From assembly GCA_000238815.2 (NCBI GenBank), contig AFXB01000010.1, positions 1,058,501 through 1,122,500 on the forward strand: a stretch of DNA of 64,000 bases. The letters are read 5' to 3'. Numbering within the stretch: the first letter of the stretch is position 1; every line of letters begins with the position of its first letter. Position numbers and translations under genes: made by a program. Shown here piece after piece: positions 5,738 to 43,894 of the stretch. The stretch comes from SAR116 cluster alpha proteobacterium HIMB100. GTDB lineage: Bacteria; Pseudomonadota; Alphaproteobacteria; Puniceispirillales; Puniceispirillaceae. A model generated the notes under the pieces. That model ran no database searches and was not told the origin of the DNA. It was given only the letters and a program-made list of their open reading frames with translations.

Positions 5738-5742
5738 GAGAT

Positions 5743-10973: not shown

Positions 10974-11010
10974 GCGAGAAGACTTTAAAAAAAGGACAGG
11001 CAGGACAATA

Positions 11011-12267: not shown

Positions 12268-12291
12268 TGTGTGTGGGAGCCATTCTGGCGG

Positions 12292-12726: not shown

Positions 12727-12762
12727 ACAGGTAATGCGACCAGATGAAATGAGGCCCTGAAC

Positions 12763-13440: not shown

Positions 13441-13508
13441 CTGGCGGATATCATGCTTGTTTGGTGTGTCGTTAACCGGACAATAAAAAAAGGCCGAATG
13501 CTGCGACT

Positions 13509-14416: not shown

Positions 14417-14481
14417 CCTTTTGTTCAAAAATGACCAACACTGTCAGGCACATAAAAGGACAGAGATAAGGATTTTACTGT

Positions 14482-16878: not shown

Positions 16879-16954
16879 GCCCAGGTAGCTCAGTTGGTAG
16901 AGCAGTGGACTGAAAATCCTCGTGTCGGTGGTTCGAATCCGCCCCTGGGCACCA
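16879..16954 (+). tRNA. tRNA-Phe (anticodon GAA)
   Basis: 76 nt: acceptor GCCCAGG/CCTGGGC, D-stem GCTC/GAGC, anticodon loop CTGAAAA giving GAA, T-arm GGTGG-TTCGAAT-CCGCC, A73 and encoded CCA. The AT-rich glycan island starts immediately after its 3' end; no second copy of the 3' end was seen in this window. Confidence 0.98.
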
Positions 16955-22551: not shown

Positions 22552-23004
22552 TTATGAGAGTTTTGATCGAATAAAAGTTTTAAGTTCTTTGATCTCATCG
22601 TCAGTACGTTTTGCATATTTAAGCAGCAATAAGTTCCGATTTAAGTTCGAAAAATCAGCCTGATTTTTGAGTTCTTTTCCCTCAAAAACGCAATGTAGAG
22701 TGAGACTTTTGTTAATCACTTTGAGCGTTAATTGATCCATTAAACTTTCTTCATTTTCGGGTAACATGTGAGCGCTACAAAAGCCTATGTGTGAGCCAGG
22801 TTGGGCGGCATTGATCGTCGCGAAAAGTTGCATGAAACAATTTTCATACTTATGTTCTCCCATCGGAAGAGAATAAGTATAGCCCTTCTGTAGGCAATAA
22901 TTTCTTAAAACTAGATTTTGAACAGGGACCGGTAAAGCGACCCCCCCAAAGGGTCGTACTGTTACATATCCCTTAAGCGTTTCAACTTTGTTAGAACTGA
23001 CCAT
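22552..23004 (-). CDS. Sporadic carbohydrate cluster protein, LIC12192 family
   Basis: 150 residues. The opening KGYVTVRPFGGVALPVPVQ, then QNLVLRNYCLQKGYTYSLPMGEHKYENCFMQL and GFCSAHMLPE, match a small family defined in scattered carbohydrate clusters (named for Leptospira LIC12192); function unknown. It overlaps the preceding 2OG oxygenase gene by 14 bp, and the two usually travel together. Possibly an enzyme acting on the same sugar or a partner subunit. Confidence 0.75.
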   Translation of the reverse strand: MVSSNKVETLKGYVTVRPFGGVALPVPVQNLVLRNYCLQKGYTYSLPMGEHKYENCFMQLFATINAAQPGSHIGFCSAHMLPENEESLMDQLTLKVINKSLTLHCVFEGKELKNQADFSNLNRNLLLLKYAKRTDDEIKELKTFIRSKLS

Positions 23005-23767
23005 TAGGCTCCTCGTATCTAAGAGCCAACTCAGTTACGGGGCTTACCCGGAAGGGGCGATAAAAGTTACCTAATTTTTTCTCGCTATGAGCCAAACTGC
23101 TGTAAGGTGAAAAAAGGGATTTAAACCTAGTGTTCAAAGAAACTCTTGTTTGGTTTGTTTCGTTAATTGTATTGCCATGCATCAGAGTGGAGGAAAAAAC
23201 CAACTTTTGTCCATAGTCAAGCTCAACACGAAAGGACTTTGATGCCCAGTCATCATACAGCTCATCCATGCCTTTAGTGTGGTAATTCGGTAATTCAGAT
23301 AACATTCTTTGGCTATCTTGAAAATTAAACGCGAACATCGCATTAGAACTGAATGCATCAGTCAGCGGAAGCCATGCAACTACTTCAAATTCGCTTTGGC
23401 CGCTGACAGTATCGGTGTGTAGACCAAGCCTGGAAGTTTTATCATGAGGTAATTGTATATTTAAGTTGATATTGTTTTGTGAAGCAAGCTCAGTGCCGAC
23501 TAAGCCTTCTATTGTTGGTTGGAATATTGAAAAGTATTTTTCCATTACATCAGATAAAGCGTTGAGGTCGTTGTATGCTTTCATTCTCACAATATTCACA
23601 TCATCAAACGTAAGGTAATTATGTAAGTCTTTCAGAGATTTTATTTTAATGCCTAACGACTGACTTATGCTTGTGGTTATTGTGCTTCGTATTTCCCTTA
23701 ATGCGGCCTCATTTGCTACAGTGCCAATAACATAGCTTTTTTCTAAAAATGTTTTCTTGAAATTCAT
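22991..23767 (-). CDS. Sporadic carbohydrate cluster 2OG-Fe(II) oxygenase
   Basis: 258 residues. LGLHTDTVSGQSEFEVVAWLPLT (about residues 113-135) has the H-x-D iron motif, and STLMHGNTINETNQTRVSLNTRF carries the distal His and the 2-oxoglutarate Arg, as in PhyH-like dioxygenases. It is expected to hydroxylate or oxidise a sugar intermediate. Coupled to the LIC12192-type gene by overlap, and downstream of an SDR. This pair is the signature of the sporadic carbohydrate clusters. Confidence 0.78.
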   Translation of the reverse strand: MNFKKTFLEKSYVIGTVANEAALREIRSTITTSISQSLGIKIKSLKDLHNYLTFDDVNIVRMKAYNDLNALSDVMEKYFSIFQPTIEGLVGTELASQNNINLNIQLPHDKTSRLGLHTDTVSGQSEFEVVAWLPLTDAFSSNAMFAFNFQDSQRMLSELPNYHTKGMDELYDDWASKSFRVELDYGQKLVFSSTLMHGNTINETNQTRVSLNTRFKSLFSPYSSLAHSEKKLGNFYRPFRVSPVTELALRYEEPNGQF

Positions 23768-23784
23768 GAGTAGGAAACCTCAAT

Positions 23785-24690
23785 CTAGCACTGGGCGAAC
23801 ATTCTAATTGAACGCTCGACTGACAAGGGGGTGAAGCCAAAACTTACTGCAAGATTGCAATCATAGAATTGACTGCGTTTTTCAGAAACTAGCACATTTG
23901 GTAATTTTGTTCCATCGAAGTGTGTTGCCAATATATCATGAGCAGCTCTTATAGTAATTGGGTCCTTCGAACCAACATTGCAAATAAGATGATTAGTCTC
24001 ATTTTGGGCAAAAAATTTTTCAGAAAATTCTAGCAAATTTTCTAACCATATGCATGAATTGAAGTTGTTGTTTGGATTGAATAATGTGACGGGCTGGCCG
24101 ATTTGCATATCTTTTTTCCACTTGGATAAAAAATTGTGTAATGCTCCTGGTGCCAACAAGACCGGCGCTCTTACAGATAAAAATTGCTCATCATTTGTAC
24201 TTATCGATGCTAAGTTTTGAAGAAAACTCTCAAAGAGCCATTTTGAAACCCCATAATGATCTTGAAATGTTTTTTTGGAGGTTTCGGTGAATGTTTCTGT
24301 ATTTTGGTCATACACAGACGCACTCGAGAAATTTAAAAAACGCGCTTTTTCCGATAGTCGAATAGACTTAACTAAAGAAGAGGAGTTTAAGAAATTAACC
24401 TGATAAAATTGACTGTTATCTTCCGCAGTAGATGGACTCGTTGTGGCTAGGTGATAGAATTCATCTATGTCTGGGAGGTCAAGTTCTCCTAAAGAAGTAT
24501 TGAATTTTTGTTCTGTTTCCCCTAGGTCGAGCGGGACAGTGTGGACATTACTTAAACAACTCAACGAAATTAATCGCTTTGATTTCCGCCCTAGCACTAT
24601 AATTTTTGATCCAGGTCGTTTTTTCTTGAGCCAACTGATCAAAGCTACGCCGGTTGGGCTGGTTCCACCAGTGATAAGAATATTATGCAT
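23785..24690 (-). CDS. NAD-dependent epimerase/dehydratase (SDR)
   Basis: 301 residues from ATG 24690 (a GTG two codons earlier is possible). Extended SDR: nucleotide-binding ILITGGTSPTGVALISWL at the N-terminus, FYHLATTSPS, FLNFSSASVY and active-site YGVSK near residue 148. The SSASVY plus YxxxK triad is intact, so a redox or epimerase role on a nucleotide sugar is plausible. It sits between the UGM-like flavoprotein and the 2OG oxygenase, probably in one pathway. Confidence 0.8.
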   Translation of the reverse strand: MHNILITGGTSPTGVALISWLKKKRPGSKIIVLGRKSKRLISLSCLSNVHTVPLDLGETEQKFNTSLGELDLPDIDEFYHLATTSPSTAEDNSQFYQVNFLNSSSLVKSIRLSEKARFLNFSSASVYDQNTETFTETSKKTFQDHYGVSKWLFESFLQNLASISTNDEQFLSVRAPVLLAPGALHNFLSKWKKDMQIGQPVTLFNPNNNFNSCIWLENLLEFSEKFFAQNETNHLICNVGSKDPITIRAAHDILATHFDGTKLPNVLVSEKRSQFYDCNLAVSFGFTPLSVERSIRMFAQC

Positions 24691-24786
24691 AAACACGCCG
24701 AAAAAAATTGATTTGTGTTATTTTAACTCATCTAGAAGGCAAACTGGTAGGCCCCATTTCTATTCATGAATATCAAGGCTTCTTTT

Positions 24787-25908
24787 CTAACCTCTAATTT
24801 TACTAACAACATCCATTGCCTGAGCAATGCAATCATCGATATCTATTCTGTATAAATAGCTTCCTGCCCGACCAATTGAAAATACGTCATCGGGCATTAA
24901 GTCGAAGTATTTTTGCGCTTTTGAAAATTCTGAACTGATAGGCAAAGGGTAATATTTTCCATTGAGAGACGGTATTTCCATGCTTAAAAGGGATGTTGGT
25001 GATTTAAAGCGGGTAAATTTTTTATATTCAATGAGCCGCGTGAATTTTTCACCATTAGGGTAATACAGAAAATAGACATTCTCTGGAAACACGTGTTCAA
25101 CAGGTAGGACAAACAAATGTAGATCTCTGCCGACGTAACGAAGGGTTTCGTAGCAATGGTCAAACAAAGCGTCAGGTGAGATAGTGTTAATTATTACGTC
25201 GAATACGTGCCACTCAGAGTTGAAGAACACACGCTTATTGATAATATCCCAACGTTCAATTGATGTATCTAGAAGAACTTTACTGTTTTGCGTTGAAATA
25301 GAAAAATAAGGGTCATACCCATCAAAATTTTGAGGAAAAGCGGAAATAGCCGTGTCCCAAACCTCTCTAGGGCCATCTTTTAGTGCAACTCCTTTAGGTG
25401 ACCAAGAAAAATCATCTATTAATTTATTATCATCTAACATCCACATTTTTTTTGAGTATGTATCAATGAATTTGCTGTAAAGAGTATCGCCTACCGATTT
25501 ACGCCAAAACTCCTCTAAATTTTTTGGAGGAACTTCGAAATTTTTTTCTACATGAGCTAATTCATTTTGTATCTTGTCAGCCTCAGGCATCAGAGGTACG
25601 TCATCAACATGTATAGGATAGTTATAAAACGCATTTTCGGATTCAATGTATGATAAACAGATATGTTCTTGACAACGTCGCATTGGCAAGATTGATGTTA
25701 AATGTTCCCAGACTTTTTCATTTTGCGTGATAAAATGTCGTGGGCCTAAGGTGTGTGGATGCCCCCCCCACCAACGCGTTTTATTTCCTCCACCGAGTTC
25801 TTTTGCTCGCTCAACCAGCGTAACGTCCCAGTTTACATCATCTGATAGAAATTTTGCAGCTGCGCAGCCAGCAAAACCACCACCGATAATCAGTGCTTTT
25901 TTACTCAT
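24787..25908 (-). CDS. UDP-galactopyranose mutase-like flavoprotein
   Basis: 373 residues from ATG 25908, which has GAGG four to five bases upstream; frame continues to 25935. FAD-binding ALIIGGGFAGCAAAKFLSD, then the UGM-type ELGGGNKTRWWGGHPHTLGPRHF, and C-terminal SIGRAGSYLYRIDIDDCIAQA, equivalent to the mutase's GR-x-Y-x-Y-x-D region. UGMs interconvert pyranose and furanose nucleotide sugars using reduced FAD. The match is distant, so ring contraction of a non-galactose sugar or another flavin reaction is possible. Confidence 0.7.
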   Translation of the reverse strand: MSKKALIIGGGFAGCAAAKFLSDDVNWDVTLVERAKELGGGNKTRWWGGHPHTLGPRHFITQNEKVWEHLTSILPMRRCQEHICLSYIESENAFYNYPIHVDDVPLMPEADKIQNELAHVEKNFEVPPKNLEEFWRKSVGDTLYSKFIDTYSKKMWMLDDNKLIDDFSWSPKGVALKDGPREVWDTAISAFPQNFDGYDPYFSISTQNSKVLLDTSIERWDIINKRVFFNSEWHVFDVIINTISPDALFDHCYETLRYVGRDLHLFVLPVEHVFPENVYFLYYPNGEKFTRLIEYKKFTRFKSPTSLLSMEIPSLNGKYYPLPISSEFSKAQKYFDLMPDDVFSIGRAGSYLYRIDIDDCIAQAMDVVSKIRG

Positions 25909-25983
25909 TGTTACCTCGTTGAATTCAAATCTCACCTTTAAGGTAGATTTTTTTGGGCTTAGATTTGTATCAGTTAAGTTAAT

Positions 25984-26703
25984 CTAATTAATTTTAGTAA
26001 GGTCAAACTTTATAGCATCAGATTGAGCAATTTCAAGTGCTTCAGCATTTCCAATATCTCGTAAGTAATCAGCGTTAAAGAAGGTATTTATTCTTCCTAA
26101 AAAGAGGGGAAGAATTTCAGTACTTAGGTCAAGCGGGGTTCTGTTAATTGAAACAATTTTTGATAGTGCTATTTTGTCAAGAATGTAGATGGCACCGTTA
26201 GCAATATTCCCCGCATCATATTTAACTTTCTCATGCAATTCCATAACTATCCCCTCATCGTTTGTTGTTACGATGCCACAGCTATCAGGACTCGTGGTTA
26301 AAAAGGTCATCATTGTAATGTTGATGTTGTCACTTCTGGATAAATGTGCGTTTTGAAATTGTTTAAGGCTGAAGCGAGTGAGATTGTCTGCATGTGCAAC
26401 TAGAAAAGATTCCTCTAAAAAATAGTCACAGTTCTTGGCTATCGTACCCCCCGTACCTAATAGTTGTTCTTCGTTTGTTATATCGATGTATTCGCGCCAT
26501 TTGCTTTTTGAAATATGGTCCGAGACTTTTTCTGATAGATAGTGGGTGTTTATCAACACACGCTCTATTCCTTGCTCGAAAAGGGAGTCCAACCAATAAT
26601 CTAAAAGAGGTTTGTTATTTATCTCCACAAGGCATTTGGGGGTGTCGTTTGTAATGGGCTTAAGCCTTGTGCCAAAGCCCGCAGAAAGCAATAGCGCTCT
26701 CAT
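25984..26703 (-). CDS. Sugar-1-phosphate nucleotidyltransferase
   Basis: 239 residues, the nucleotidyltransferase domain only. LLLSAGFGTRLKPITNDTPKCLVEINNKPLLDYW has the G-x-G-T-R-x(6)-P-K pattern; EEQLLGTGGTI and VAHADNLTRF hold the sugar and metal sites; the tail resembles HddC/ManC-type enzymes. It overlaps the HldE-like gene by 4 bp, so both act probably on one sugar phosphate. Which nucleotide (CTP, GTP or UTP) is used cannot be read. Confidence 0.85.
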   Translation of the reverse strand: MRALLLSAGFGTRLKPITNDTPKCLVEINNKPLLDYWLDSLFEQGIERVLINTHYLSEKVSDHISKSKWREYIDITNEEQLLGTGGTIAKNCDYFLEESFLVAHADNLTRFSLKQFQNAHLSRSDNINITMMTFLTTSPDSCGIVTTNDEGIVMELHEKVKYDAGNIANGAIYILDKIALSKIVSINRTPLDLSTEILPLFLGRINTFFNADYLRDIGNAEALEIAQSDAIKFDLTKIN

Positions 26704-28178
26704 TGCATGATCTCATTATAAACATCTTGCTTACTTAAGGGGAGGTTACCTAACCTGCTTACTTGAATTGCGGCGGCTATCGACCCTAATAGCGCGGCTT
26801 CCCATATGGATGCTTCTACTGCGAGAGCCATTGCTGCGGTAACTAAAAGAGAGTCTCCCCCACCAGCCACATCTAGCGGTGTCGGATTCAATGCTGGTAT
26901 TCGATCGGTCATCAACTCTTTTAATTCATTCTCGATAGTTGTTTGAACAAAAACACCCTCAGAACCCAAAGTCATAAGTATGTTTTCAGCATTCGAATTT
27001 TTCTGAAGTTGCGATGCTAGGTTCACAAGTCCCGCGGTATGGTCTCCAACGGCAAGCCTCACCTCTCTTTCGGTGGGCGTAACTAATTTCATGTTTTTGA
27101 AGCGGGCGATGTCTCCAAGTTGTGAAGAAGACTGGCTGTCAGCAGCCATCATAACATTTTCTTTTCGACATATTTCGATGATTTCATCGACTAAACCTTG
27201 TGGGAGACAGCCATAATTAAAATCTGAAAAGATTACTAAGTCTAAATTATGGATCAATTCCTTGATCCGTTGTAAAAATGTTGCTGCTAGGTTTTTAGAT
27301 ATTTCATGTTGACGAAGGGTGTTGACTCTCAAAAGTGTTTTACTTTGAGACCGGTACCTTTTTTTTAGTGTGGTTGGTCTGGTCTCGTCTGCTATCAAAT
27401 AAGACTGTACACCGAAGTCGTTTAAACGTTCTTTTACGAAGTCAGCCGTCTTATCACAGCCGTGAATAGAAATAAGGTGTGCTTCTGCACCCAGCCCTTT
27501 AGCGTGAGCTGCAACTATACCAGCCCCCCCAAGGAAAGTTTCCGAGGTGATAGGGCTAACGACAATAGTAGGGTCTTCTTGCGACATACCTAAGGCTTCG
27601 CAAGATACATACTCATCTGCGATAATGTCGCCAACTACAAGGACCTTTAGCTGACCAAACTTTTCTAAAGTATGTTTGTTTCTACTTTGGGAGATATTGT
27701 GTCTGTCTAAATAATTTTTAACTTTGGTCAATGAGAAGGGTTTTGCCTTGTTAAATTCGGTTTTTAAGAGCTCCATTGAGGAAAATCTTGAATCAGCTGA
27801 TCCAAACAATAGTTTGCCACCATAACCATCTATTATGCCTTGTTCTGGGTTTTGCATTTGTTCATGCTCTTTCCCTTTGATAACAATATCAGGCTTTATT
27901 TTTTCAATAATGTTAGATGCTGTTCCTTCCATAACAAAAGCGTGGTCCACGACGGAAATAGCCGAAATAGCTTCCAGCCTAAGTTCTTTTGGAACAATAC
28001 TACCAGCCTCATTATCGTGATTTAGTCCCACTATCAGAATATCACCACATTCTGCCCCAAAGTTTAATAATCTTACATGTCCGGAATGCACTACGTTGAA
28101 AGAGCCGGAAATGAACACTACTTTCAATCCATCTCGTTGCTGAGATAACAATTCTATTAATTTATCGGATTCCATCAT
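26700..28178 (-). CDS. HldE-like bifunctional protein with inverted domain order
   Basis: 492 residues. N-terminal nucleotidyltransferase of the HIGH family (about 1-140): SGSFNVVHSGHVRLLNFG with H31 and H34, then KPDIVIKGKEHE. C-terminal PfkB kinase (about 175-492): VLVVGDIIADEYV, LGGAGIVAAHAKGLGA, and AGGGDSLL with the catalytic Asp. E. coli HldE has kinase first and nucleotidyltransferase second; here the order is reversed. HldE phosphorylates heptose-7-phosphate at C1, then activates it. Here it may act on a similar seven-carbon or ketose-derived sugar; the GAGD motif reads GGGD. Confidence 0.85.
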   Translation of the reverse strand: MMESDKLIELLSQQRDGLKVVFISGSFNVVHSGHVRLLNFGAECGDILIVGLNHDNEAGSIVPKELRLEAISAISVVDHAFVMEGTASNIIEKIKPDIVIKGKEHEQMQNPEQGIIDGYGGKLLFGSADSRFSSMELLKTEFNKAKPFSLTKVKNYLDRHNISQSRNKHTLEKFGQLKVLVVGDIIADEYVSCEALGMSQEDPTIVVSPITSETFLGGAGIVAAHAKGLGAEAHLISIHGCDKTADFVKERLNDFGVQSYLIADETRPTTLKKRYRSQSKTLLRVNTLRQHEISKNLAATFLQRIKELIHNLDLVIFSDFNYGCLPQGLVDEIIEICRKENVMMAADSQSSSQLGDIARFKNMKLVTPTEREVRLAVGDHTAGLVNLASQLQKNSNAENILMTLGSEGVFVQTTIENELKELMTDRIPALNPTPLDVAGGGDSLLVTAAMALAVEASIWEAALLGSIAAAIQVSRLGNLPLSKQDVYNEIMQ

Positions 28179-28237
28179 AACAATTCGGTATTTTCACGGC
28201 TAATAGTGTTAACAGGGGAATTTAAGTCTCTTGAGCG

Positions 28238-29293
28238 TTAGTCCATAGTAACTAAAACTCTTCCGCTAATTGTCCCATTTTTCATCCCAGCTAGCCCGTT
28301 GTTAATTTCAGACAGTGAGACTCTATGTGTGATTAAATTTTTGAGTTTCATTTTACCTGCCTCTGAAAGAGATAGATATCTCGGTATATCGATTTCAGGC
28401 ACTGCCTCACCGCCATGAGAGCCTGAAACCGTTTTCCCAAAGTGAAGCGGCAATGTGAAAATGCTTGTCTTATTTCCAGCTTTTGGGACACCAACTAAGA
28501 TTACGCGCCCTCTTGAACTTGTGAGCTCGTAACCAGTTTCAATGATTTCAGGAATGCCTGTGTTATCAACAAAAACATCTAAGCCTGAATCGCCAATGAT
28601 TGCCTTTATTTCATTTTGAGGAATTACGGAATTTGCATCAATTGTATGTGTTGCTCCCATTTCCGTTGCAAGTTGCAACCGACCAGGATGAATATCAACG
28701 GCAATTATTGGGTGTGCCGATGTCATTGCAGCAGCTTGTATGATGTTTAAGCCGACACCTCCAGCTCCATAAACAACTAATGACTCTCCAATTTTCAATT
28801 TTGCATTATTTGTTATCACGCCAAAGCCGGTGGTAACTGCACAGCCAAATAAAGCGGCACACTCTTTATCGACATTTGATGAAATTGCTGTAAGGCGGTT
28901 TTCTGATACGATTGCATATTCGTTGAATGTTGTTATCCAACCAGCATTAACAACTTGTGAGCCCCATTTATAGGAGGGTGGTGCAGAATCTATTCCCAGC
29001 CCTTTTTTCCAATGCATCACCACTAAGTCTTCTTTTTTTACATGTTTGACGCCCGGGCCTGTTTCTAGAACCGTCCCAGAGCCTTCGTGTCCTAGCAGGT
29101 GTGGCAGAAAATGATCAAATCCTTTGACGCCTTCGATTTCACCAATTTGTGAACCGCATATTCCGCTAAAGTGAACTTTGACAAGAACTTGCCCTGGCTT
29201 TAGTTCACTTGGCAACGAAATTTCGTCTATAATTAGAGGCTTTCTGAGCTCGGTTAGTATAGCTGCTTTGAATTTGATGTTAGGTAATTTCAT
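28238..29293 (-). CDS. Zinc-binding alcohol dehydrogenase (MDR family)
   Basis: 351 residues. Catalytic zinc ligands are in SGICGSQIGE (Cys) and LLGHEGSGTV (His-Glu). The four structural-zinc cysteines normally near residues 95-115 are absent (VVMHWKKGLGID). Rossmann VVYGAGGVGLNIIQAA binds NAD(P), with IIAVDIHPGRL giving the Asp for NAD preference. It probably oxidises or reduces a sugar alcohol or keto-sugar of the pathway. Between the HldE-like gene and a methyltransferase. Confidence 0.88.
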   Translation of the reverse strand: MKLPNIKFKAAILTELRKPLIIDEISLPSELKPGQVLVKVHFSGICGSQIGEIEGVKGFDHFLPHLLGHEGSGTVLETGPGVKHVKKEDLVVMHWKKGLGIDSAPPSYKWGSQVVNAGWITTFNEYAIVSENRLTAISSNVDKECAALFGCAVTTGFGVITNNAKLKIGESLVVYGAGGVGLNIIQAAAMTSAHPIIAVDIHPGRLQLATEMGATHTIDANSVIPQNEIKAIIGDSGLDVFVDNTGIPEIIETGYELTSSRGRVILVGVPKAGNKTSIFTLPLHFGKTVSGSHGGEAVPEIDIPRYLSLSEAGKMKLKNLITHRVSLSEINNGLAGMKNGTISGRVLVTMD

Positions 29294-29301
29294 TTTTAAC
29301 T

Positions 29302-29970
29302 CTATTCAAAAAAAATGAAGGAATGGTCGCCGTTGTACCCCGTCAATTCAAACCACCAATCCCATTCATCTGGAGTATTAAAAGCTTCACATGTTACCTG
29401 CCAATAGAGTAAGTTGGCTTTCTCTTGCTCATTTCTGTATGATTCAACACATAAATATTTGTGCTGTTTCCCAACACGTTCCATTTCACGCAGTGCTCGA
29501 TAGAGGTCTGGTGCATGAAGGTTATGAAGCGTTGTTAATGAGACAACGAGGTCAAATTCATCGTTGTTAAATGGTAAATTATTTGCGTTACCCAGTTTTA
29601 AACTATCTTTTATTTCAGGTAATGAATTTTGAATTGCATACTCTGAGATATCAAGTCCTATAACCTCAACGCCTGGGCAGACTTGCGTAAAGTCATAAAG
29701 CAAAAAGCCTTTTCCGCAACCGATGTCGAGTATTTTGTCTCCAGCTTTGATGCCATAATGTTGAACCATTTGTGCCGCTACGTTTGCCCATCTACCATCA
29801 TACTTATATCCACCGTAGTTTATTTTTCGGCTTCCATCCCAGTAGTCAAAAGCCCATTTTTTCGCTAACGATGCTGCATAAGGCTTTGGGTAATCTTTGT
29901 CGTTTACTCTAGCAAGATAGTCACGCTTTGTACTCTTGTGCACGGATGACATGAAATCTTGGTAACTCAT
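29302..29970 (-). CDS. Class I SAM-dependent methyltransferase
   Basis: 222 residues. Motif I ILDIGCGKGFLLYDF near residue 82, VIGLDISEYAI, motif IV FDLVVSLTTLHNLHAPDLYRALREMERVG and CVESYRN beta strand. The N-terminal 75 residues carry a YWDGSRKINYGGYKYDGRW segment common in sugar methyltransferases of carbohydrate clusters. The gene ends 8 bp upstream of the dehydrogenase start, so they are cotranscribed. Substrate unknown. Confidence 0.85.
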   Translation of the reverse strand: MSYQDFMSSVHKSTKRDYLARVNDKDYPKPYAASLAKKWAFDYWDGSRKINYGGYKYDGRWANVAAQMVQHYGIKAGDKILDIGCGKGFLLYDFTQVCPGVEVIGLDISEYAIQNSLPEIKDSLKLGNANNLPFNNDEFDLVVSLTTLHNLHAPDLYRALREMERVGKQHKYLCVESYRNEQEKANLLYWQVTCEAFNTPDEWDWWFELTGYNGDHSFIFFE

Positions 29971-30005
29971 ATCTTAGAACCTTCCGTCGTTTATTTACTG
30001 AACAA

Positions 30006-31079
30006 TTAGGAAAAATTTGACTTCTTGACTGCAAATTTCAGAAGCTCGGCTGCAGAATTAACGCGACTTATGCAAGTTTCTTCATAAGCGGTCTTATCTT
30101 TATCCAACCCTCTGGTAATTGCCCATTCTTCTCTCAGAGGGTTAAGAAGGATGAAGCACCATCTTAGCCGGAAAAATGGCTTTAGAAGATTTGCTCTACG
30201 CTTATGTTTTAAAAGTTTATTTTCGCCCAAATGTGATAGGCAAGATTTAAGAAATAAGTCCTCATATTTTTCCGGGACAGGAACTTTCGGTTGTAAAAAA
30301 AAATCCGCGAAAAGTTTCGCCGGGTCGTCCCAGCCTGCATACTCAAAATCGATAAATGCGAGTGAACCTGTGTTTCTTTTTATAGCATTATGGTACCCAA
30401 AATCAGAAGGGGACAAACATCTTTCATTTAGAGGAATTTCTGCGCTTTCGTCAATTCCTTCGTCACGCGCGAGCCATAGAATATTCTTGATACTTTTTTC
30501 GAGATAAGTATGTATCTCTCGAGCCAATGGTTGAAGTAACTTTGTATTTCTTTTTATGTGCTTCAGTTCACTTAACTTATTTTGTAAAAAATTTATGTGC
30601 CCTAAAATTGAAAATTCAGCATCAGAGGCATTTGGTAAATGTGACGCATTTTTTCTCATTGTCGGGCTATTCAATTTTCTGATGAAGTCTGCCGCATTTA
30701 AAACATCAGGAGTGGTCAGGCTATTTGCTTCTATGGAGGTTCCTTCAATAAATTCAAATATTGCTAGACCTGCATCTTTGTTGACAGCTATCGGACTTGG
30801 TACCGGTAATTCTCCACAAACGTTTTTGACTAGGTTAGTAAAATCCCATTCGGTGTTCATTCGGTTTCGTTTATCAACCTTTGAAAGGTTATACTTTTTC
30901 AAAGCGTATGTTTCATCTTCGATCATCAGTTTTAGAACTGTGTTATTGCCACCAAGGTTTTTATCGATGACCCGCAGCCTGACATCTGATTTGTTCAAAA
31001 AACTCAATAGCTTGCGAACTTGTTCAGCATCTGCCTCGATAAATGACGCTAATTCAGAAATGTTTCCAGTTGTTTCCAA
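30006..31079 (-). CDS. APH/choline-kinase-fold phosphotransferase
   Basis: 357 residues with the aminoglycoside-phosphotransferase fold: a Lys in YALKKYN in the N-lobe, the catalytic loop SPSDFGYHNAIK (Asp and Asn as in HxDxxxxN, with the leading His replaced by Ser) and DFEYAGWDDPAKLFADFF as the metal-binding DFG-like segment. It likely phosphorylates a sugar or amino-alcohol. It overlaps the HAD phosphatase upstream by 31 bp, a kinase-phosphatase pair that recurs in sporadic carbohydrate clusters. Confidence 0.78.
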   Translation of the reverse strand: METTGNISELASFIEADAEQVRKLLSFLNKSDVRLRVIDKNLGGNNTVLKLMIEDETYALKKYNLSKVDKRNRMNTEWDFTNLVKNVCGELPVPSPIAVNKDAGLAIFEFIEGTSIEANSLTTPDVLNAADFIRKLNSPTMRKNASHLPNASDAEFSILGHINFLQNKLSELKHIKRNTKLLQPLAREIHTYLEKSIKNILWLARDEGIDESAEIPLNERCLSPSDFGYHNAIKRNTGSLAFIDFEYAGWDDPAKLFADFFLQPKVPVPEKYEDLFLKSCLSHLGENKLLKHKRRANLLKPFFRLRWCFILLNPLREEWAITRGLDKDKTAYEETCISRVNSAAELLKFAVKKSNFS

Positions 31080-31648
31080 GCTTTTATTCTTTCCAGATTA
31101 GTCTCTTCACGGTGATGAGACATAGGATCAAACAGAATGCCTCTTGTGGTATCAGGAAATGCTTCAGCTAATAGTATTTCCGGCAGATCATCGATGAAAA
31201 TATCACAATTTTGAGCCTTTATTTGCTCAATCTTAGCGGTCTTGGTTTGATGGAAAAAGACTTCATCCTCTTGCACCATTAGCTCATTTTGAAAAACCAA
31301 CGCTGTTTTTATCCACTTATTGGCAGCATTGTGCAAATCATACCTGGGGCCTGAATAAGGATGTTTAGTTTTATGGCTGATGATTTTGCATGTATGATTG
31401 TTTTTTTTTGCCCAAACTAGAAATTCTATAACTCCTTTGTAAGGCTTGACTCTAGGCATAGCACGTCCGTAAACAAATCCTTGTAATTTTATCCAATCTT
31501 CCTCTTTACCATTCGCACGTAAGTTATCCCTAACTGAAGTCTTATCCGTCTTAACCGACTTATCAATTAATCCCTTTTCGACGGCTATCTCGTGAAAAAT
31601 GAGATCGTAGCATGCTATAGTATTGTCGAAGTCTAGCCCTACTATCAT
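31049..31648 (-). CDS. HAD-family hydrolase
   Basis: 199 residues from ATG 31648, which has GGAAGATGAGAG just upstream and lies 4 bp past the transketolase stop; the frame reaches 31693. Motif I is GLDFDNTIACYD (nucleophile and acid Asp), motif II IISHKTK, a Lys in the TAKIEQIKA segment, and motif IV IFIDDLPE. All four HAD elements are present, so a phosphatase is likely. Long cap-like insert between residues 30 and 90. Acts probably on a phosphosugar made by the transketolase or kinase. Confidence 0.8.
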   Translation of the reverse strand: MIVGLDFDNTIACYDLIFHEIAVEKGLIDKSVKTDKTSVRDNLRANGKEEDWIKLQGFVYGRAMPRVKPYKGVIEFLVWAKKNNHTCKIISHKTKHPYSGPRYDLHNAANKWIKTALVFQNELMVQEDEVFFHQTKTAKIEQIKAQNCDIFIDDLPEILLAEAFPDTTRGILFDPMSHHREETNLERIKAWKQLETFLN

Positions 31649-31652
31649 GCTC

Positions 31653-32576
31653 TCATCTTCCAATTGCGTTTTGGATGGCGGAGGAGATCGCATTAGCGTT
31701 TATACCATATTGATCCATGGCAAAGTTTTGGTCTCCGATTTTGTGTAAGAAGTAATCTGCTGCAGAAATAGGATGTAATTGTATTTTATTATTTTTTTGG
31801 ATTGAAAGCTGTTCTGCAATCGCTCCAAACAGACCGCCTATTCTTCCATGCTCTTCAACTATAAATACCTGCGCGAAGGAAGTAGAGATTTCGTCCAACT
31901 TAATTTTGTCAAGTGGTTTAACAGTGTGAAAATTTTCGACTCTTACCGAGAGCCCCTCGAACTTAAGTTTATCAGCAGCCTCGATCGCTTGTCGTAAAAC
32001 GGGCCCAGTGCCAATAATGCAAGCATCATGACCCTCACGTAGCGTAACAGACTCCCCAAATTTTAGTTTGTTTGAGTTCTCATATAGATCGGGTTCACCT
32101 TTTTTTCCAAGTCGTATGTAAATCGGGTTTTGATACTCAAAAGCGGCCTCTAACCCTTCTCTTGTTTCTTTAGGCCCTGATGGGCAAAATATAGTCATAT
32201 TAGGCAGAGTTCGTAAAATCGCGATGTCTTCCATTGAGTGATGAGTAGGCCCAAGTGACGCGTATGAGAGGCCTGCACCAGTTCCGACGATTATCACAGG
32301 GGCATTGTTGTAACAAACATCAACTCTTATTTGCTCGAAGCATCGATAGGTAGTGAATGGTGCTATAGTATAGACCACCGGCTTCAGCCCAGATAACGCT
32401 AAGCCAGCAGCAGTGCCCATCATCATTTGTTCTGCGATGCCGCAATTTATGAACTGCTTTTCGTTATAATCCTTAAGTCCGTCAAACATACGGTTGCCAA
32501 TATCACCAGATAACAGGACTATTCGTTCATCTTGACGAGCTTTTTTTTGAAGCTCTGCTGCAAAACTGTCTCTCAT
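31653..32576 (-). CDS. Transketolase-like protein, C-terminal (beta) subunit
   Basis: 307 residues covering the pyrimidine-binding and C-terminal domains of transketolase. FINCGIAEQMMMGTAAGLALSG holds the catalytic Glu for ThDP; YRCFEQIRVD and GLSYASLGPTHHSMEDIAILR follow family patterns; VFIVEEHGRIGGL ends the third domain. With the next gene upstream it makes a split transketolase. The two genes abut, with ATG directly after the preceding stop. It would move a two-carbon ketol between a ketose and an aldose inside this sugar pathway. Confidence 0.9.
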   Translation of the reverse strand: MRDSFAAELQKKARQDERIVLLSGDIGNRMFDGLKDYNEKQFINCGIAEQMMMGTAAGLALSGLKPVVYTIAPFTTYRCFEQIRVDVCYNNAPVIIVGTGAGLSYASLGPTHHSMEDIAILRTLPNMTIFCPSGPKETREGLEAAFEYQNPIYIRLGKKGEPDLYENSNKLKFGESVTLREGHDACIIGTGPVLRQAIEAADKLKFEGLSVRVENFHTVKPLDKIKLDEISTSFAQVFIVEEHGRIGGLFGAIAEQLSIQKNNKIQLHPISAADYFLHKIGDQNFAMDQYGINANAISSAIQNAIGR

Positions 32577-33410
32577 TTAGAGTGTTCCTAGTTCGTACTT
32601 GGCTGCCTGAACCTCTTCAGAGGTTGGAATTTTATAATGCCAGTTGTTATCATTTTGCATAAATGATACGCCCTTGCCTTTAATTGTGTGAGCAATAACC
32701 GCTCGAGGTTTATCGCCAATAGGCTTTGTTAGAGCGTTGATTATCTCCATCATGTTGTGCCCGTCGATTTCAGTTGCGTGCCAGCCAAAAGCTCTCCATT
32801 TGTCCGCCATTGGATCGATTGCCATTACATTTTGGCTTCTATCTGTTGCCTGCCATTTATTAAAATCAACGATTACGGTTAGATTAGCTAATTTACGAGA
32901 CGCTCCCAGTAACGCAGTTTCCCATATTGTTCCCTCGTTACTTTCTCCATCACCAATAAGAACGTCGACCCGATTATTTTGATTTTTGACCTTGCTGGCA
33001 ATAGCGAAGCCTAATCCAATTGGAAGCCCATGACCAAGTGATCCAGTTGCAGCCTCGATGCCAGCTAAATATTGCGGCGCAGGGGGGTGCTCACCAAAAA
33101 TGTCTGTGCCATCGTGCTTCGCTTTAAGAAGTCTACTTTCTGGGAAAAAACCGGCCATTGCGAGTGTATTGAATAAGGCAGGGGCTGCATGCCCTTTGCT
33201 TAAAACGAAGCGATCGCGAAGATCATCATTTGGGTTCTTGGGATCGATTTCTAAAATGTGAAAATAATATGCGGTCAGAATATCAACGCATGACAAACAA
33301 GATGCAAGATGTGGTGTTCTTGAGCTGAAGGAGTACTCTATTATTTTTGATCGGAGTAGGGTAGCAGTTTGTTGGAGCTTTTCTATTGATGAATGTGACA
33401 CTTGTTTCAT
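32577..33410 (-). CDS. Transketolase-like protein, N-terminal (alpha) subunit
   Basis: 277 residues: the ThDP-pyrophosphate domain. GDGESNEGTIWE to NLTVIVDFNKWQ fits the GDG-x(26-28)-N motif that binds Mg-ThDP; FVLSKGHAAPALFNTLA and ATGSLGHGLPIGLGFAIA are strong transketolase segments. Paired with the beta subunit. Split transketolases of this kind occur in natural-product and carbohydrate clusters, for example in kanosamine and aminoshikimate pathways. A 126-bp gap separates it from the DegT genes. Confidence 0.92.
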   Translation of the reverse strand: MKQVSHSSIEKLQQTATLLRSKIIEYSFSSRTPHLASCLSCVDILTAYYFHILEIDPKNPNDDLRDRFVLSKGHAAPALFNTLAMAGFFPESRLLKAKHDGTDIFGEHPPAPQYLAGIEAATGSLGHGLPIGLGFAIASKVKNQNNRVDVLIGDGESNEGTIWETALLGASRKLANLTVIVDFNKWQATDRSQNVMAIDPMADKWRAFGWHATEIDGHNMMEIINALTKPIGDKPRAVIAHTIKGKGVSFMQNDNNWHYKIPTSEEVQAAKYELGTL

Positions 33411-33536
33411 ATCTACGCCATCTTTTATAAAAATTGATCTGTTATTTATTCAATATTTTGCAGAATTCTTAGTGATTTACGCTTTATCAATCTCAAGCTT
33501 TTTGCGTTTTCGTTTCAGCTTGAATAATAGATTAAT

Positions 33537-34649
33537 TCAAGCTTTGGAAGAAAAGAAATCTTTTACAGATCCAATTATATAATTTACTTCGTCGTCTAAT
33601 AGTTCTGGATATATCGGAAGGCTTAACATTTCTTCGGATATTTTCTCAGCAACAGGAAAATCACCTCTTTTATATCCCAAAGCAGCCGCTGACGGTTGAA
33701 GATGCAATTGAATAGGGTAATGTACTTTTGTTTCTATACCTCTTTCTCGTAAATGCAGAGCAAGTTCATTGCGGTATGCGGTACGAATTACGAAGTTATG
33801 ATAGACGCAATATTCAAATTCCCTATCAAAGGGTGTGTCAACTAAGTTTTCTAAATTTGCTCTGTATTTAGCTGCAATGAGTCTGAATTTTTGCGTTGTT
33901 GTCTCTATTTTTTTAAGTCTGTGGTGGGCAATTTCAGCTTGAAGTGTGTCTAATCGTGAGTTCCAGCCCCAAAATTCAGAAACATCTCGATCTTTGAGGC
34001 CGTGATTTCGTAATTTTTTTAGTTTCTTGTACAACGCTTCATTGTTAGTGGTAATTAGACCACCGTCTCCCAAAACATTTAAGTTTTTTAAGGGATGCAA
34101 ACTGAAACTCCCAGCAGTTCCGAGTGAACCTACGCTTTTGCCATGATATTTTGCGCCAAAAGCTTGTGCTGCGTCCTCAATTAAATAAAGGTTATATTTT
34201 TCAGCAATTACAGAAAGTTCGTGCATTTGGGCTGGTTTCCCAGTTAGATGCACGGCCATTATTGCTTTGGTCTTATTGGTGATTTTACCCTCTACGCAAG
34301 CGGGGTCGATATTAAGGTCCTCATTAATGTCGGCAAACACAGGTTTGGCTACGATATTTGAAATTGAGCTGGCTGAGGATATGTAAGAATTCGGCGCAGT
34401 GATGACTTCGTCACCTCTGCCGATGCCAAGGCTAAACATAATCATTGATAATGCATCTGTGCCATTTCCAACACCAAGCGCATATTTTGAGTCACAGTAC
34501 TCTGCCGCGGCTTTTTCAAATTCGGTTACGGCTTCCCCGAGCACATAAATGCCACTTCTTCCTACCGACCTGAATATGTCGACAAGCTGCGGCTCTTCCT
34601 CTTGAAATTGTCGTTTAAGATTTACAAAAGGAATATCCATTTTCTTCAT
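33537..34649 (-). CDS. DegT/DnrJ/EryC1-family PLP aminotransferase (second of tandem pair)
   Basis: 370 residues. Sugar aminotransferase fold: GNGTDAL (61-67), VFADINEDLNIDP, IEDAAQAFGA with PLP-contacting D159, and SLHPLKNLNVLGDGG with Schiff-base K188. These enzymes aminate keto sugars of nucleotide-linked or free form. The start overlaps the stop of the first aminotransferase by 4 bp (ATGA). The two proteins share the HPLKNLN lysine loop and are clearly paralogues, but the N-termini and many loop residues differ, suggesting two different amination steps or a heterodimer. Confidence 0.92.
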   Translation of the reverse strand: MKKMDIPFVNLKRQFQEEEPQLVDIFRSVGRSGIYVLGEAVTEFEKAAAEYCDSKYALGVGNGTDALSMIMFSLGIGRGDEVITAPNSYISSASSISNIVAKPVFADINEDLNIDPACVEGKITNKTKAIMAVHLTGKPAQMHELSVIAEKYNLYLIEDAAQAFGAKYHGKSVGSLGTAGSFSLHPLKNLNVLGDGGLITTNNEALYKKLKKLRNHGLKDRDVSEFWGWNSRLDTLQAEIAHHRLKKIETTTQKFRLIAAKYRANLENLVDTPFDREFEYCVYHNFVIRTAYRNELALHLRERGIETKVHYPIQLHLQPSAAALGYKRGDFPVAEKISEEMLSLPIYPELLDDEVNYIIGSVKDFFSSKA

Positions 34650-35803
34650 GCGTAAAAACTCTCAATCAAATCCACAACTTTTGATTGCTCATCGGCTGTA
34701 ATGTACTCGTGAACAGGAAGTGACATGACACTCTTCGCTACGGTTTCTGCAATAGGGAAATCTCCTTCTTTGTATCCAAAACCTTTAGATGCTGGTTGCA
34801 GATGCATTGGTGTTGGATAGTGGATTTTTGCGTCCACTCCGTTGGCAATTAGATAAGCCTGTAACTCATCTCTTCTCTCGAAACATAGTGAGTAAATGTG
34901 AAATACCTGCTTGACTGTCTCCTCTTCTCTTGGAGGGATGGTAACCTGAGGTATTTTCAAAAGCAATTTATCAAAATTACGCGAATTCTCGATTCTTTTT
35001 TTACTAATTTCAGGTAGCTTGCGTAATAAATGCTCTGCAACAACTGCCTGAATAGTATCTAATCTTGAATTATATGCGAATATTTCACATGTGTTTCGAC
35101 CTGACAAGCCATGGTTTCTTAGTAGTCGGAGCTTAGCCGCCACTTTTTCTGATTGAGTGCAAATTATGCCTCCATCTCCCCAGACATTTAAGTTCTTGAG
35201 CGGGTGCATCGAAAAACAACCCGTGTCGCCAAATGTACCTGCATTCTTATTTTTGTAGGTTGCTGTTATAGCATGACAAGCGTCCTCAATGATCTTCAGA
35301 CCATATTTTTCCGCAATTTTGGAAATTCTATCCATGTCACAAGGTTTGCCAGACCAATGAACCGGTACAATCGCTTTTGTGTTGGGTGTAATTGCAGCTT
35401 CAATTTTTTCGGGGTCTATATTGTAATCATCGCCAATGTCAGCAAAAACAGGGCGAGCTCCAGCTGTTACTATTGCACCTATCGTGGCGTAAAATGTAAA
35501 AGGTGTTGTTATTACCTCATCTTCATTTGTATCGCCAATCCCGAAAGCTTTAAGGCTTAAAAATAGTGCATCGGTACCGCTTCCCACTCCCACAGAAAAT
35601 TTGCTGTTTATTGTTTCGCAGAAATGATTTTCAAACTCATCAACTTTTCTACCTAACGTGTAATCACCGTTTCTCACAACCACAGAAATTTTCTCTAAAA
35701 TTTCCTCATAATCAGAGAACTGCTTAGTTAGATAGTTGTGGTTGATGGGCAGAACGCTATTTTCATCGTACTGCCTTGGCAGAAAGTTCTTTACACTTTT
35801 CAA
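34646..35803 (-). CDS. DegT/DnrJ/EryC1-family PLP aminotransferase (first of tandem pair)
   Basis: 385 residues. GSGTDALFLSLKAFG (75-89), PVFADIGDDYNIDPEKI, IIEDACHAITATYKNKNAG and SMHPLKNLNVWGDGG with Schiff-base K203 fit the sugar aminotransferase family. The protein has about 20 more N-terminal residues than its neighbour. It starts 18 bp after the dehydratase-like SDR stop, so keto-sugar formation and amination are probably consecutive. Confidence 0.92.
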   Translation of the reverse strand: MKSVKNFLPRQYDENSVLPINHNYLTKQFSDYEEILEKISVVVRNGDYTLGRKVDEFENHFCETINSKFSVGVGSGTDALFLSLKAFGIGDTNEDEVITTPFTFYATIGAIVTAGARPVFADIGDDYNIDPEKIEAAITPNTKAIVPVHWSGKPCDMDRISKIAEKYGLKIIEDACHAITATYKNKNAGTFGDTGCFSMHPLKNLNVWGDGGIICTQSEKVAAKLRLLRNHGLSGRNTCEIFAYNSRLDTIQAVVAEHLLRKLPEISKKRIENSRNFDKLLLKIPQVTIPPREEETVKQVFHIYSLCFERRDELQAYLIANGVDAKIHYPTPMHLQPASKGFGYKEGDFPIAETVAKSVMSLPVHEYITADEQSKVVDLIESFYA

Positions 35804-35820
35804 TTAGGTCTCCCATCAGA

Positions 35821-36864
35821 TTATGTTGTGTGAATATATTCAAGAGGTAAAGTCTTCAGTTTTTGAAAGTTAGAAACAATCCATTCAGCAGTTTCACTTA
35901 GACCTTTATTGAGAGTTGTTTGCGGAGACCATCCTAAATTCGCAGCGGCCTTATCTGAACTCATCAGATAAGCTGCATCTTTACCAATTCGCTCTGGACC
36001 AGTTTTACAAAAGGTATCTTGTTGAACATCCATTAAGTCACAAATTATTGCCACTAATTCACTAATAGAGACGAATTCGGAATTTGAGAAATGATAAGTT
36101 TCTCCTGGTGCACCGTTGAATAACGCTGCTAATACCCCACTAACTATGTCCGATGAATAAATAAATGAACGGATGGACGTCCCACCGCCGTCTAAAGTTA
36201 GGCTTCCGCACCCCAAAGCTGCTAGCATAGTTTTTGGGACTATTCTATACAGTTGTTGCCCTGGGCCATAAAAATTGGCGAAACGCGCGGTTATGATTGG
36301 GAAATTGTAATGTTTAAAGAAAGCATTAAGACTCATATCCGTTGCGGCATGTGATACCGCATAAGGTGTCGAAGGATTGTATCGGGAGCTCTCTGTAAGA
36401 AGTTTTTCGCTGCTTCCATAGACTTCCGGGGTTGATATTCGCACGTACGCTTTAAGATACTCTTTTCCAATTAGAAACCGATGAAGTTTTGCTTTGGCAA
36501 GAATATTTGTTTGATACCATTGTTCAGGGTTTTCCCAGCTTTGAGCTACCATACCTTGGCCGGCAAAATCAATGATAGCATCTGGTCTCACAACATCTAT
36601 TAATTCGAGGAGCTGGTTGTGCTGTTTATTTATATTCAATTGTGTGAATGTGAACGATGATACATTTTTATTTTTTCTGTAAGTATTAAAAACATTTTGA
36701 AGTTCTCTTGATCTACTAACACCCCACACTTTCATTCCCATATGCAAGCATCCATCGACTGTTGCTGCGCCTGCGAAAGAGTTACTGCCAATAATCAAGG
36801 CTTTCTCGATATCTCTTTTTTGTGGGAAACTTTGAAAATTATAAATCATATTTTGATAGCTCAC
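35821..36864 (-). CDS. Nucleotide-sugar dehydratase/epimerase-like SDR with altered active site
   Basis: 347 residues. Extended SDR resembling dTDP-glucose and GDP-mannose 4,6-dehydratases: ALIIGSNSFAGA near residue 22, DFAGQGMVAQSWENPEQWYQTN, STPEVYGSSE (144-153), NPSTPYAVSHAATDMSL (163-179), ARFANFYGPGQQLYRIVPK. The Tyr of YxxxK is Y168 but the Lys position is H172, and the usual T-D-E is T-P-E. A changed Lys and Asp argue against an ordinary dehydratase. It precedes the two aminotransferases. Confidence 0.82.
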   Translation of the reverse strand: MSYQNMIYNFQSFPQKRDIEKALIIGSNSFAGAATVDGCLHMGMKVWGVSRSRELQNVFNTYRKNKNVSSFTFTQLNINKQHNQLLELIDVVRPDAIIDFAGQGMVAQSWENPEQWYQTNILAKAKLHRFLIGKEYLKAYVRISTPEVYGSSEKLLTESSRYNPSTPYAVSHAATDMSLNAFFKHYNFPIITARFANFYGPGQQLYRIVPKTMLAALGCGSLTLDGGGTSIRSFIYSSDIVSGVLAALFNGAPGETYHFSNSEFVSISELVAIICDLMDVQQDTFCKTGPERIGKDAAYLMSSDKAAANLGWSPQTTLNKGLSETAEWIVSNFQKLKTLPLEYIHTT

Positions 36865-37841: not shown

Positions 37842-38825
37842 TTAATCTGTTTGATAAATTATCTGACTTCCAAACGGATGTGTTTTAACTGGCATCTCTT
37901 TTAACCTGGAACCCAAATTTGTTCTCAGCTCATTATGTGTTTCTGGAGGTGCGAGGAACATAATGAAACCCCCATTTCCGGCTCCTAGCAATTTTCCTCC
38001 GTAGGCACCAGCACGACGACCAATTTTGATATATTCTTCTATCGTGTCGTTTGAAACAGACTTTGCAGTTTTTCGTTTTAAATTCCAGCTTTCGCTTAGT
38101 ATCTTGCCCATAGTTTCTATATCGTTTTTTTTCATTGCACAGAGAAATGGGTCACACAAATTTTTAATTTCATCGACTAGCCTTACTGTTTCTGTTTTTG
38201 TTTTCAATAAATAGCTTTGTTCCGCCAGTACAGATGATGCAGACCTGCTTTTTCCAGTGTAAAAAAGAAGCATATGATGATTTAAATTTTCCTGTGTGAC
38301 GTTAGAGCAGCTTACAGGAGAAACTGAAACAGTCCCTTGAGCGTGAAAAGAAATTTCATTGATACCGCCAAAAGCTGCTGCATATTGGTCTTGCTTACCA
38401 ATAGGCTCATTGCACATCTCAATTTCAATTTTGCAAGCCTCGCGTGCCAAGTAATCTGCCGATACTGTTTTCCCCCTTAAACTATTAAGGGCGTGTAGGA
38501 GGCATACAGTAAAGCTACTAGATGAGCCCAGGCCTGTTCCTTTAGGTACATCTGCCATTGATGCAACCTCTACTCCCTTGTCAATTCCAGTCAACTGCAT
38601 TGCGCTTCTAATTAAGGGATGTTTTAGTTGCGTTACTTTTTCCACGTCTTCTGTGATTGAGTAAGATGCTCTAATCCCTGAATCGAATTTGTCCTTTACG
38701 GTAAGATACATAAATTTATTTATCGTCGTGGATATAACTTTTCCACCGTAGTGTTTATAATAGGAGGGGAGGTCGCTTCCGCCCCCAATGAAACTTACCC
38801 TCATGGGTGTTCTGCAAATAATCAC
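37842..38825 (-). CDS. hddA: GHMP kinase, D-glycero-D-manno-heptose 7-phosphate kinase type
   Basis: 327 residues. Opening IICRTPMRVSFIGGGSDLPSYY is typical of HddA and fucokinase-like GHMP kinases; GTGLGSSSSFTVCLLHAL is the phosphate loop; KLLGAGNGGFIMFLAP is motif 3. HddA converts D-glycero-D-manno-heptose 7-phosphate to the 1,7-bisphosphate. The HddC fusion lies 8 bp upstream and GmhA is at 43.9 kb, which supports the heptose assignment. Confidence 0.85.
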   Translation of the reverse strand: MIICRTPMRVSFIGGGSDLPSYYKHYGGKVISTTINKFMYLTVKDKFDSGIRASYSITEDVEKVTQLKHPLIRSAMQLTGIDKGVEVASMADVPKGTGLGSSSSFTVCLLHALNSLRGKTVSADYLAREACKIEIEMCNEPIGKQDQYAAAFGGINEISFHAQGTVSVSPVSCSNVTQENLNHHMLLFYTGKSRSASSVLAEQSYLLKTKTETVRLVDEIKNLCDPFLCAMKKNDIETMGKILSESWNLKRKTAKSVSNDTIEEYIKIGRRAGAYGGKLLGAGNGGFIMFLAPPETHNELRTNLGSRLKEMPVKTHPFGSQIIYQTD

Positions 38826-38833
38826 TTACTGCC

Positions 38834-42816: not shown

Positions 42817-42935
42817 GGTCTTTGCCCGTATATTTTGGTTTTAATTTTGTTAGAACTTGATTATGTTCTTGGTCAAGTGAAAATTGGGTCCATTATTAAG
42901 CGGCTTAATTGAAACTGCTGGAGAAAGATAAATTA
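42817..42935. promoter_or_regulatory. Divergent promoter region between the two main glycan operons
   Basis: About 120 bp of AT-rich DNA between the GT2 gene (minus) and the epimerase gene (plus). It must drive the long minus-strand operon and the plus-strand block. No box matches a known consensus well enough to name. The plus gene has GGAGAAAG before its ATG. Confidence 0.4.
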
Positions 42936-43877: not shown

Positions 43878-43894
43878 AGCACAAGGTTTCTCAA

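Follow-up and report, generated by a model that had tools for sequence, protein, structure and literature searches.

Bradyrhizose, a rare sugar from bacteria that live in symbiosis with plants, is a C10 bicyclic component of the O-antigen of photosynthetic Bradyrhizobium (PMC4743980). Insertion into gdh of Bradyrhizobium ORS285 results in lipopolysaccharide that lacks bradyrhizose, and gdh lies within eleven syntenic genes of photosynthetic strains (Busset et al., PMC4743980). That paper is the sole mutagenesis study of bradyrhizose and states that its biosynthesis genes are unknown; no later pathway paper was found in the literature looked through, nor was any paper found there on the "sporadic carbohydrate cluster" or on transketolase with flagellin glycosylation. 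Here, a gene cluster at positions 22552-36864 of a 64,000 nucleotide stretch from SAR116 cluster alpha proteobacterium HIMB100 (contig AFXB01000010.1; the whole stretch is hereafter termed the window) was compared to these genes. The cluster was originally predicted to encode an unassigned sugar pathway, a label that no longer applies as eleven genes are homologous to the cluster tied by mutation to bradyrhizose (PMC4743980). A solved sugar is in part available for homologous clusters by way of this link. The cluster is likely to encode a pathway of the bradyrhizose type, leading to a higher-carbon sugar that bears a ring, with amination and oxidation steps added. We hold the assignment at the level of the pathway with good confidence, and the exact order and sites of its steps are offered tentatively.

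Relationship to the bradyrhizose genes

The gdh gene was located using the published primers of PMC4743980, where fragments of 300-400 bp are reported, as probes on 196 Bradyrhizobium genomes. The primers matched in 4 of the 196, all four of which contain photosynthetic reaction-centre genes, and at one locus (L182; L numbers denote loci and G numbers genomes in the comparison, G000 being the window's own genome) both primers matched exactly (0 mismatches), 381 bp apart. The run of genes around gdh consists of exactly eleven, encoding HldE, a nucleotidyltransferase, the short-chain dehydrogenase/reductase (SDR) SDR_hep, GmhA, Gdh, the transketolase subunits TKa and TKb, a zinc-type dehydrogenase (MDR), a HAD phosphatase, an APH kinase and a methyltransferase. 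Homologues of all eleven (11/11) were found in the window at 32-67% identity, the highest being SDR_hep at 66-67%, followed by TKa (57%), the methyltransferase (56%), GmhA (52%), the nucleotidyltransferase (51%), TKb (48%), HldE (47%), HAD (43%), Gdh (42%), MDR (41%) and the APH kinase (32%). Based on these sequence comparisons, homology of the window set to the bradyrhizose cluster is strong. The Gdh proteins are of one type, reading TPEVYG...YAVSH in the window and TPEVYG...YAVSR in Bradyrhizobium. In a tree of HldE the window and Bradyrhizobium copies fell on one side of a branch with support of 100/99, apart from the type B clusters described below, and the same grouping was obtained for transketolase (SH-aLRT 99, quick tree only). 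A TIGR04324-type operon of non-photosynthetic Bradyrhizobium was rejected as the bradyrhizose operon, its SDRs lacking the gdh primer peptides; TIGR04324 was not found in the photosynthetic Bradyrhizobium genomes that carry the gdh cluster.

The enzymes of the original prediction are real and form a co-directional run, every listed open reading frame (ORF) being found at its given coordinates on the minus strand with spacing of -41 to +126 bp, and their names are backed by family scans. The gene list left out two further members of the same set, SDR_hep and a GmhA-like gene, which lie divergently at 42909-44473 on the plus strand and were recognised as missing members from their homologues in related loci. 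The window is thereby not limited to eleven genes in one operon, having six further genes as well as the two divergent members. The genes are as follows.

35821-36864, minus: SDR1, Gdh homologue, RmlB-like (TIGR01181, 176.9 bits, cut-off 365)
34646-35803, minus: DegT1, sugar aminotransferase of the amination module (family scan, solved-structure matches)
33537-34649, minus: DegT2, sugar aminotransferase of the amination module (family scan)
32577-33410, minus: TKa, transketolase N-terminal subunit, binding thiamine pyrophosphate (TPP) (solved split transketolase 6yak, 2e-61)
31653-32576, minus: TKb, transketolase C-terminal subunit (solved split transketolase 6yaj, 6e-53)
31049-31648, minus: HAD-fold phosphatase (motif and predicted fold; the ORF extends from 31693)
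30006-31079, minus: APH-fold small-molecule kinase (PF01636, weak, 21.9 bits)
29302-29970, minus: class I S-adenosylmethionine-dependent methyltransferase (family scan)
28238-29293, minus: MDR, zinc-type dehydrogenase (ADH_N and ADH_zinc_N)
26700-28178, minus: inverted HldE (CTP_transf_like domain at residues 14-139, then PfkB sugar kinase at 171-488)
25984-26703, minus: RmlA/HddC-like sugar-1-phosphate nucleotidyltransferase (PF00483)
24787-25935, minus: UDP-galactopyranose-mutase-like (UGM-like) flavoprotein, accessory (PF03275, 95 bits)
23785-24696, minus: SDR2, extended SDR, accessory (PF01370)
22991-23767, minus: 2-oxoglutarate (2OG)-Fe(II) oxygenase, TIGR04324, accessory (HxD...H retained)
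22552-23004, minus: LIC12192 protein, TIGR04323, accessory (predicted serine-recombinase-like fold)
42909-43877, plus: SDR_hep, NAD epimerase/reductase-like SDR of the base module (PF01370)
43847-44473, plus: GmhA-like SIS ketose/aldose phosphate isomerase of the base module (TIGR00441, 105.5 bits, SIS_2; TTG start)

SDR1, previously called dehydratase-like, does fall in the RmlB-like family but is not RmlB, scoring well under the cut-off and reading TPEVYG for TDE and YxxxH for YxxxK. The changes from TDE to TPE and from YxxxK to YxxxR/H were observed throughout the Gdh members in which both motifs were located. As Gdh lacks the acid and lysine of RmlB it more likely acts as a 4-oxidase than as a dehydratase, and 4-oxidation without loss of water would suit an inositol-like ring that retains its oxygens. 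The HldE-like protein is not a canonical HldE, its domain order being reversed and its scores reaching 205.8 bits for TIGR02198 (cut-off 345) and 73.5 bits for TIGR02199 (cut-off 181.5). TKa and TKb, separate N- and C-terminal chains closest to the solved split transketolases, are assigned as a split transketolase pair; they score to transketolase and not as a pyruvate dehydrogenase E1 (PDH-E1) alpha/beta pair of the AviB type.

No Pfam family was matched by the HAD protein, which keeps in common with aligned relatives a DxDNT motif (DFDNT) and was modelled with a HAD fold at a predicted local distance difference test score (pLDDT) of 95. Its start is probably at 31648 rather than 31693, since homologues begin there (MIVGLDFDNT). 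HAD and APH kinase are fused as one protein beside the transketolase pair at three loci (L038, 324-1934; L123; L172), and PF01636, weak on the window kinase, scores 50.7 bits on the bradyrhizose homologue. A PDB sequence search with the putative methyltransferase returned generic class I enzymes only, compatible with either C- or O-methylation. The nearest solved structures to DegT1 were 3uwc (4e-108) and then the scyllo-inositol transaminase 7b0d (8e-87), and its homologues are paired with DegT2 at L223 and L255-L257.

Among the accessory proteins, the UGM-like flavoprotein scores 106 bits for TIGR00031, under the cut-off of 303.75, and matches Pfam GLF (PF03275); homologues at 50-55% identity adjoin related clusters at L116, L123 and L228. 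SDR2-like SDRs adjoin the 2OG/LIC12192 pair at L074, L086 and L093. The members of this pair score 338 bits for TIGR04324 (2OG, cut-off 150) and 150.6 bits for TIGR04323 (LIC12192, cut-off 55). The LIC12192 family is without Pfam assignment and has a predicted serine-recombinase catalytic-domain fold (pLDDT 88; Foldseek probability 1.00, TM score about 0.5-0.6, 13% identity), which would put a resolvase fold into sugar biosynthesis. In the model the catalytic serine is apparently lost, an arginine lying near its expected place by visual alignment.

Natural variants and modules

A search of the class for TIGR04324 led to type B loci, in which a recurrent order is HldE-(GmhA)-SDR_hep-HAD-APH kinase-TKa-TKb-(DegT, DegT)-2OG-LIC12192-methyltransferase, and further variant clusters were found by searches with HldE and Gdh alignments. 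Scanning of 84,980 species genomes, a sample that is uneven, resulted in 80 further named loci, mostly from Bradyrhizobium, Azospirillum, Reyranella, relatives of Magnetospirillum and marine Alphaproteobacteria. Since the same genes are found together in different genera and families, clustering by chance is ruled out. The gene-neighbourhood comparison that had been called for thus bears out co-occurrence of the set, and the converse possibility raised there, that the genes occur independently in other genomes, does not hold, though they co-occur as exchangeable modules.

A GmhA-like gene was present in every type A relative except G726. Within the window's own family, G037 carries the eleven as a single run with none of the window's extras, and G020 has the eleven genes together with twin DegT. 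A tandem flagellin array and long TPR proteins adjoin the cluster in G020 (L231:1-7670); the array suggests that the G020 sugar decorates flagellin. In four genomes (G644, G990, G974 and G040) a PDH-E1 alpha/beta pair stands in place of transketolase. In these four and in G081, where the pairs were located at L219, L221, L232, L254 and L257, HAD and APH kinase are absent and MDR and methyltransferase are kept. Clusters of this kind also carry an acetolactate-synthase-like TPP enzyme (L219:6732-8510, L221:6760-8526 and L217:10349-12151, with a family scan for L219 only). In two genomes, G014 and G022, the set consists solely of GmhA, HldE, nucleotidyltransferase, SDR_hep, Gdh and twin DegT, without TPP enzyme, MDR, methyltransferase, HAD or APH kinase. 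After removal of near-duplicates, APH kinase was found in 38 of the 42 loci with a transketolase pair and in none of the 18 without (HAD, 36 versus 2); these counts do not amount to a formal test, given the relatedness of the loci and the truncation of some of them by contig ends. The genes thus divide into a base module, a module of TPP enzyme, MDR and methyltransferase, a HAD and kinase module that occurs only with the bradyrhizose-type transketolase, and an independent DegT module.

Annotated plasmid and phage collections searched with the 2OG protein gave no match, and viral contigs searched with the inverted HldE alignment gave none. Two viral contigs, L176 (IMGVR_UViG_3300047552_000915, 3903-14660) and L177, contain terminase and portal genes alongside sugar genes. 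The sugar set, located between replication and packaging genes, comprises an SDR, HldE-like pieces, GmhA, SDR_hep, TKa, TKb, 2OG, LIC12192 and a methyltransferase and is, judged by this gene content, a phage-borne higher-sugar operon.

Proposed pathway and alternatives

In the proposed pathway GmhA would isomerise sedoheptulose-7-phosphate, which inverted HldE and the nucleotidyltransferase would convert into a nucleoside diphosphate (NDP)-heptose (C7) that SDR1/Gdh would oxidise to a 4-keto-heptose with retention of water. The methyltransferase would contribute one carbon, perhaps at C5, beside the ketone. The split transketolase would then put a two-carbon ketol unit on the C4 ketone to give a tertiary alcohol, the APH-type kinase adding and the HAD phosphatase removing a phosphate required for ketol transfer. 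Oxidation of C7 to an aldehyde by MDR would allow aldol closure to a six-membered carbocycle, and SDR_hep would reduce the leftover ketone. The carbon count of such a product, 7+2+1 = 10, would equal that of bradyrhizose. Free bradyrhizose forms hemiacetals via O4, O5 or O9 (PMC9912281), from which we infer that C9 is bonded to C4; this fits a C4-C9 carbocycle and is the bond that a C2 branch at heptose C4, followed by closure onto C7, would yield.

PDH-E1-like pairs are proposed to add C2 to 4-keto sugars in avilamycin and paulomycin biosynthesis (PMC4425429; also PMC4753412), and by analogy the simplest position for the exchangeable TPP enzyme is after formation of the keto sugar. In the window, the twin DegT enzymes would swap one or two oxygens for amino groups, the UGM-like enzyme may change the ring form and the 2OG/LIC12192 pair would act late. 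Together with SDR2 these genes suggest an aminated, oxidised relative of bradyrhizose, and the window probably makes such a modified relative. An amino or chain-extended sugar that is later oxidised, as first envisaged, hence remains the best reading, amination being probable. Taken as a whole, it is possible, albeit doubtful in its full detail, that a split transketolase with its own kinase and phosphatase adds two carbons to an NDP-4-keto-heptose prior to closure to an inositol-like ring, that the pathway is built of modules and extends across Alphaproteobacteria far outside Bradyrhizobium, in many cases next to flagellin genes, and that the window product is an aminated, oxidised two-ring sugar.

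Several points weigh against this pathway. The bradyrhizose assignment is based on insertion mutants for which polar effects were not excluded by the authors (PMC4743980). Step order and product of the window glycan are deduced from genes, and the tenth carbon was taken to be a methyl from numbering and carbon count. In G081 a PDH-E1 pair is found together with a transketolase-like pair, so both kinds of TPP pair are present. Type B clusters, which have transketolase and 2OG, are without SDR1, MDR and the extra nucleotidyltransferase, and the same chemistry is not to be assumed for them. Finally, transketolases usually use free sugar phosphates and not nucleotide sugars.

This last property would favour an unlikely alternative in which the transketolase acts first, joining C2 and a hexose phosphate to octulose-8-phosphate that GmhA, HldE, HAD and the nucleotidyltransferase convert to an NDP-octose, which the SDRs and DegT modify. 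The tie of APH kinase and HAD phosphatase to transketolase is in its favour, as are gene classes that match the lincosamide sugar pathway (transaldolase, phosphatase, nucleotidyltransferase, epimerase, dehydrogenase and transaminase) leading from octulose-8-phosphate to GDP-octose (PMC12945683). It was demoted on account of the exchange of transketolase for PDH-E1 and of the clusters that lack a TPP enzyme: an acetyl donor would give no ketose phosphate for GmhA in G644, G990, G974 and G040, and the base module exists without any TPP enzyme in G014 and G022. Furthermore, C8 alone falls short of C10. An NDP-keto-heptose that receives two carbons is consequently favoured over an octulose start.

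Less probable still are two unrelated adjacent pathways, an ordinary NDP-amino sugar route (SDR1 and DegT x2) and an ordinary NDP-heptose route in which transketolase only raises the sedoheptulose supply. The base module with DegT and without transketolase in G014 and G022 would agree with this, as would a further HldE-like gene at a separate genomic location (C4:138771-139700), but transketolase, HAD, APH kinase, MDR and methyltransferase accompany the base module in different families as well as in the bradyrhizose cluster that was mutated, the product of which has ten carbons. Kanosamine, aminoshikimate or aminohydroxybenzoate metabolism helped by the split transketolase, which has dehydrogenase, aminotransferase, phosphatase, kinase and transketolase gene classes in common with the window and was doubted from the outset for want of an aminoDAHP synthase, was rejected as highly improbable, having no supporting gene: no aminoDAHP synthase, aminoDHQ synthase or other aminoshikimate enzyme was found among the scanned cluster proteins (the rest of the genome was not searched), and relatives adjoin flagellin and polysaccharide genes.

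Surroundings and comparison with known systems

Positions 37842-41004 encode a heptose-kinase-like GHMP protein, a nucleotidyltransferase that has an additional C-terminal portion, and an SDR, which probably serve a second unusual sugar. The heptose-kinase-like and nucleotidyltransferase genes were rejected as members of the pathway, occurring in no bradyrhizose-type relative save for a weak 24% nucleotidyltransferase match in G726. A second split transketolase pair, 34-35% identical to the one studied, lies roughly 16 kb beyond the window (L041:16183-17977 = G000:C10:1138683-1140477) by surface-polysaccharide-type genes. A tRNA-Phe gene (16879-16954) is located just ahead of the surface-polysaccharide region, and G+C drops from 47% to about 39% (20000-64000); this is a possible candidate for an island boundary.

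The gdh cluster has now been read gene by gene, found outside Bradyrhizobium including in the window's own family, and split into modules by natural variants, and comparison of the modules yields concrete, ordered enzyme hypotheses for such sugars. Only two mechanisms are known for two-carbon branching of sugars, the PDH-like pair and YerE (PMC4425429); if true, the transketolase route would be a third. The flagellin arrays beside relatives hint that higher sugars with rings may have gone unnoticed among the glycans of flagellin.

Of the known systems, the gdh cluster of photosynthetic Bradyrhizobium (ORS285, ORS278 and BTAi1) is closest, having the same eleven gene families and the same Gdh motif changes (TPEVYG, YxxxR/H). 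The window differs from it in gene order, in the divergent position of SDR_hep and GmhA and in the addition of DegT x2, the UGM-like enzyme, SDR2, 2OG and LIC12192. The TIGR04323/TIGR04324 pair of the NCBIfam "sporadic carbohydrate cluster" is present above cut-off, and in relatives usually lies after TKa-TKb and ahead of the methyltransferase; most of those relatives are without SDR1, MDR and the nucleotidyltransferase, making the window a hybrid of both cluster types. AviB1/AviB2 of avilamycin and Pau11/Pau12 of paulomycin are likewise TPP alpha/beta pairs that accompany a pathway to a keto sugar, and PDH-E1-like pairs fill the same slot in five related clusters, whereas the window pair is a transketolase and would give a ketol, not an acetyl unit. 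The lincosamide GDP-octose pathway follows the same logic of ketose-phosphate isomerase, kinase, phosphatase, nucleotidyltransferase, SDR, dehydrogenase and aminotransferase, but has a transaldolase (LmbR) for transketolase, starts from octulose-8-phosphate and forms no carbocycle. GmhA-like and HldE-like enzymes are common to the window and the ADP-heptose pathway GmhA-HldE-GmhB-HldD, from which the window is set apart by its inverted HldE well under curated cut-offs, its extra nucleotidyltransferase and the separate HldE-like gene elsewhere.

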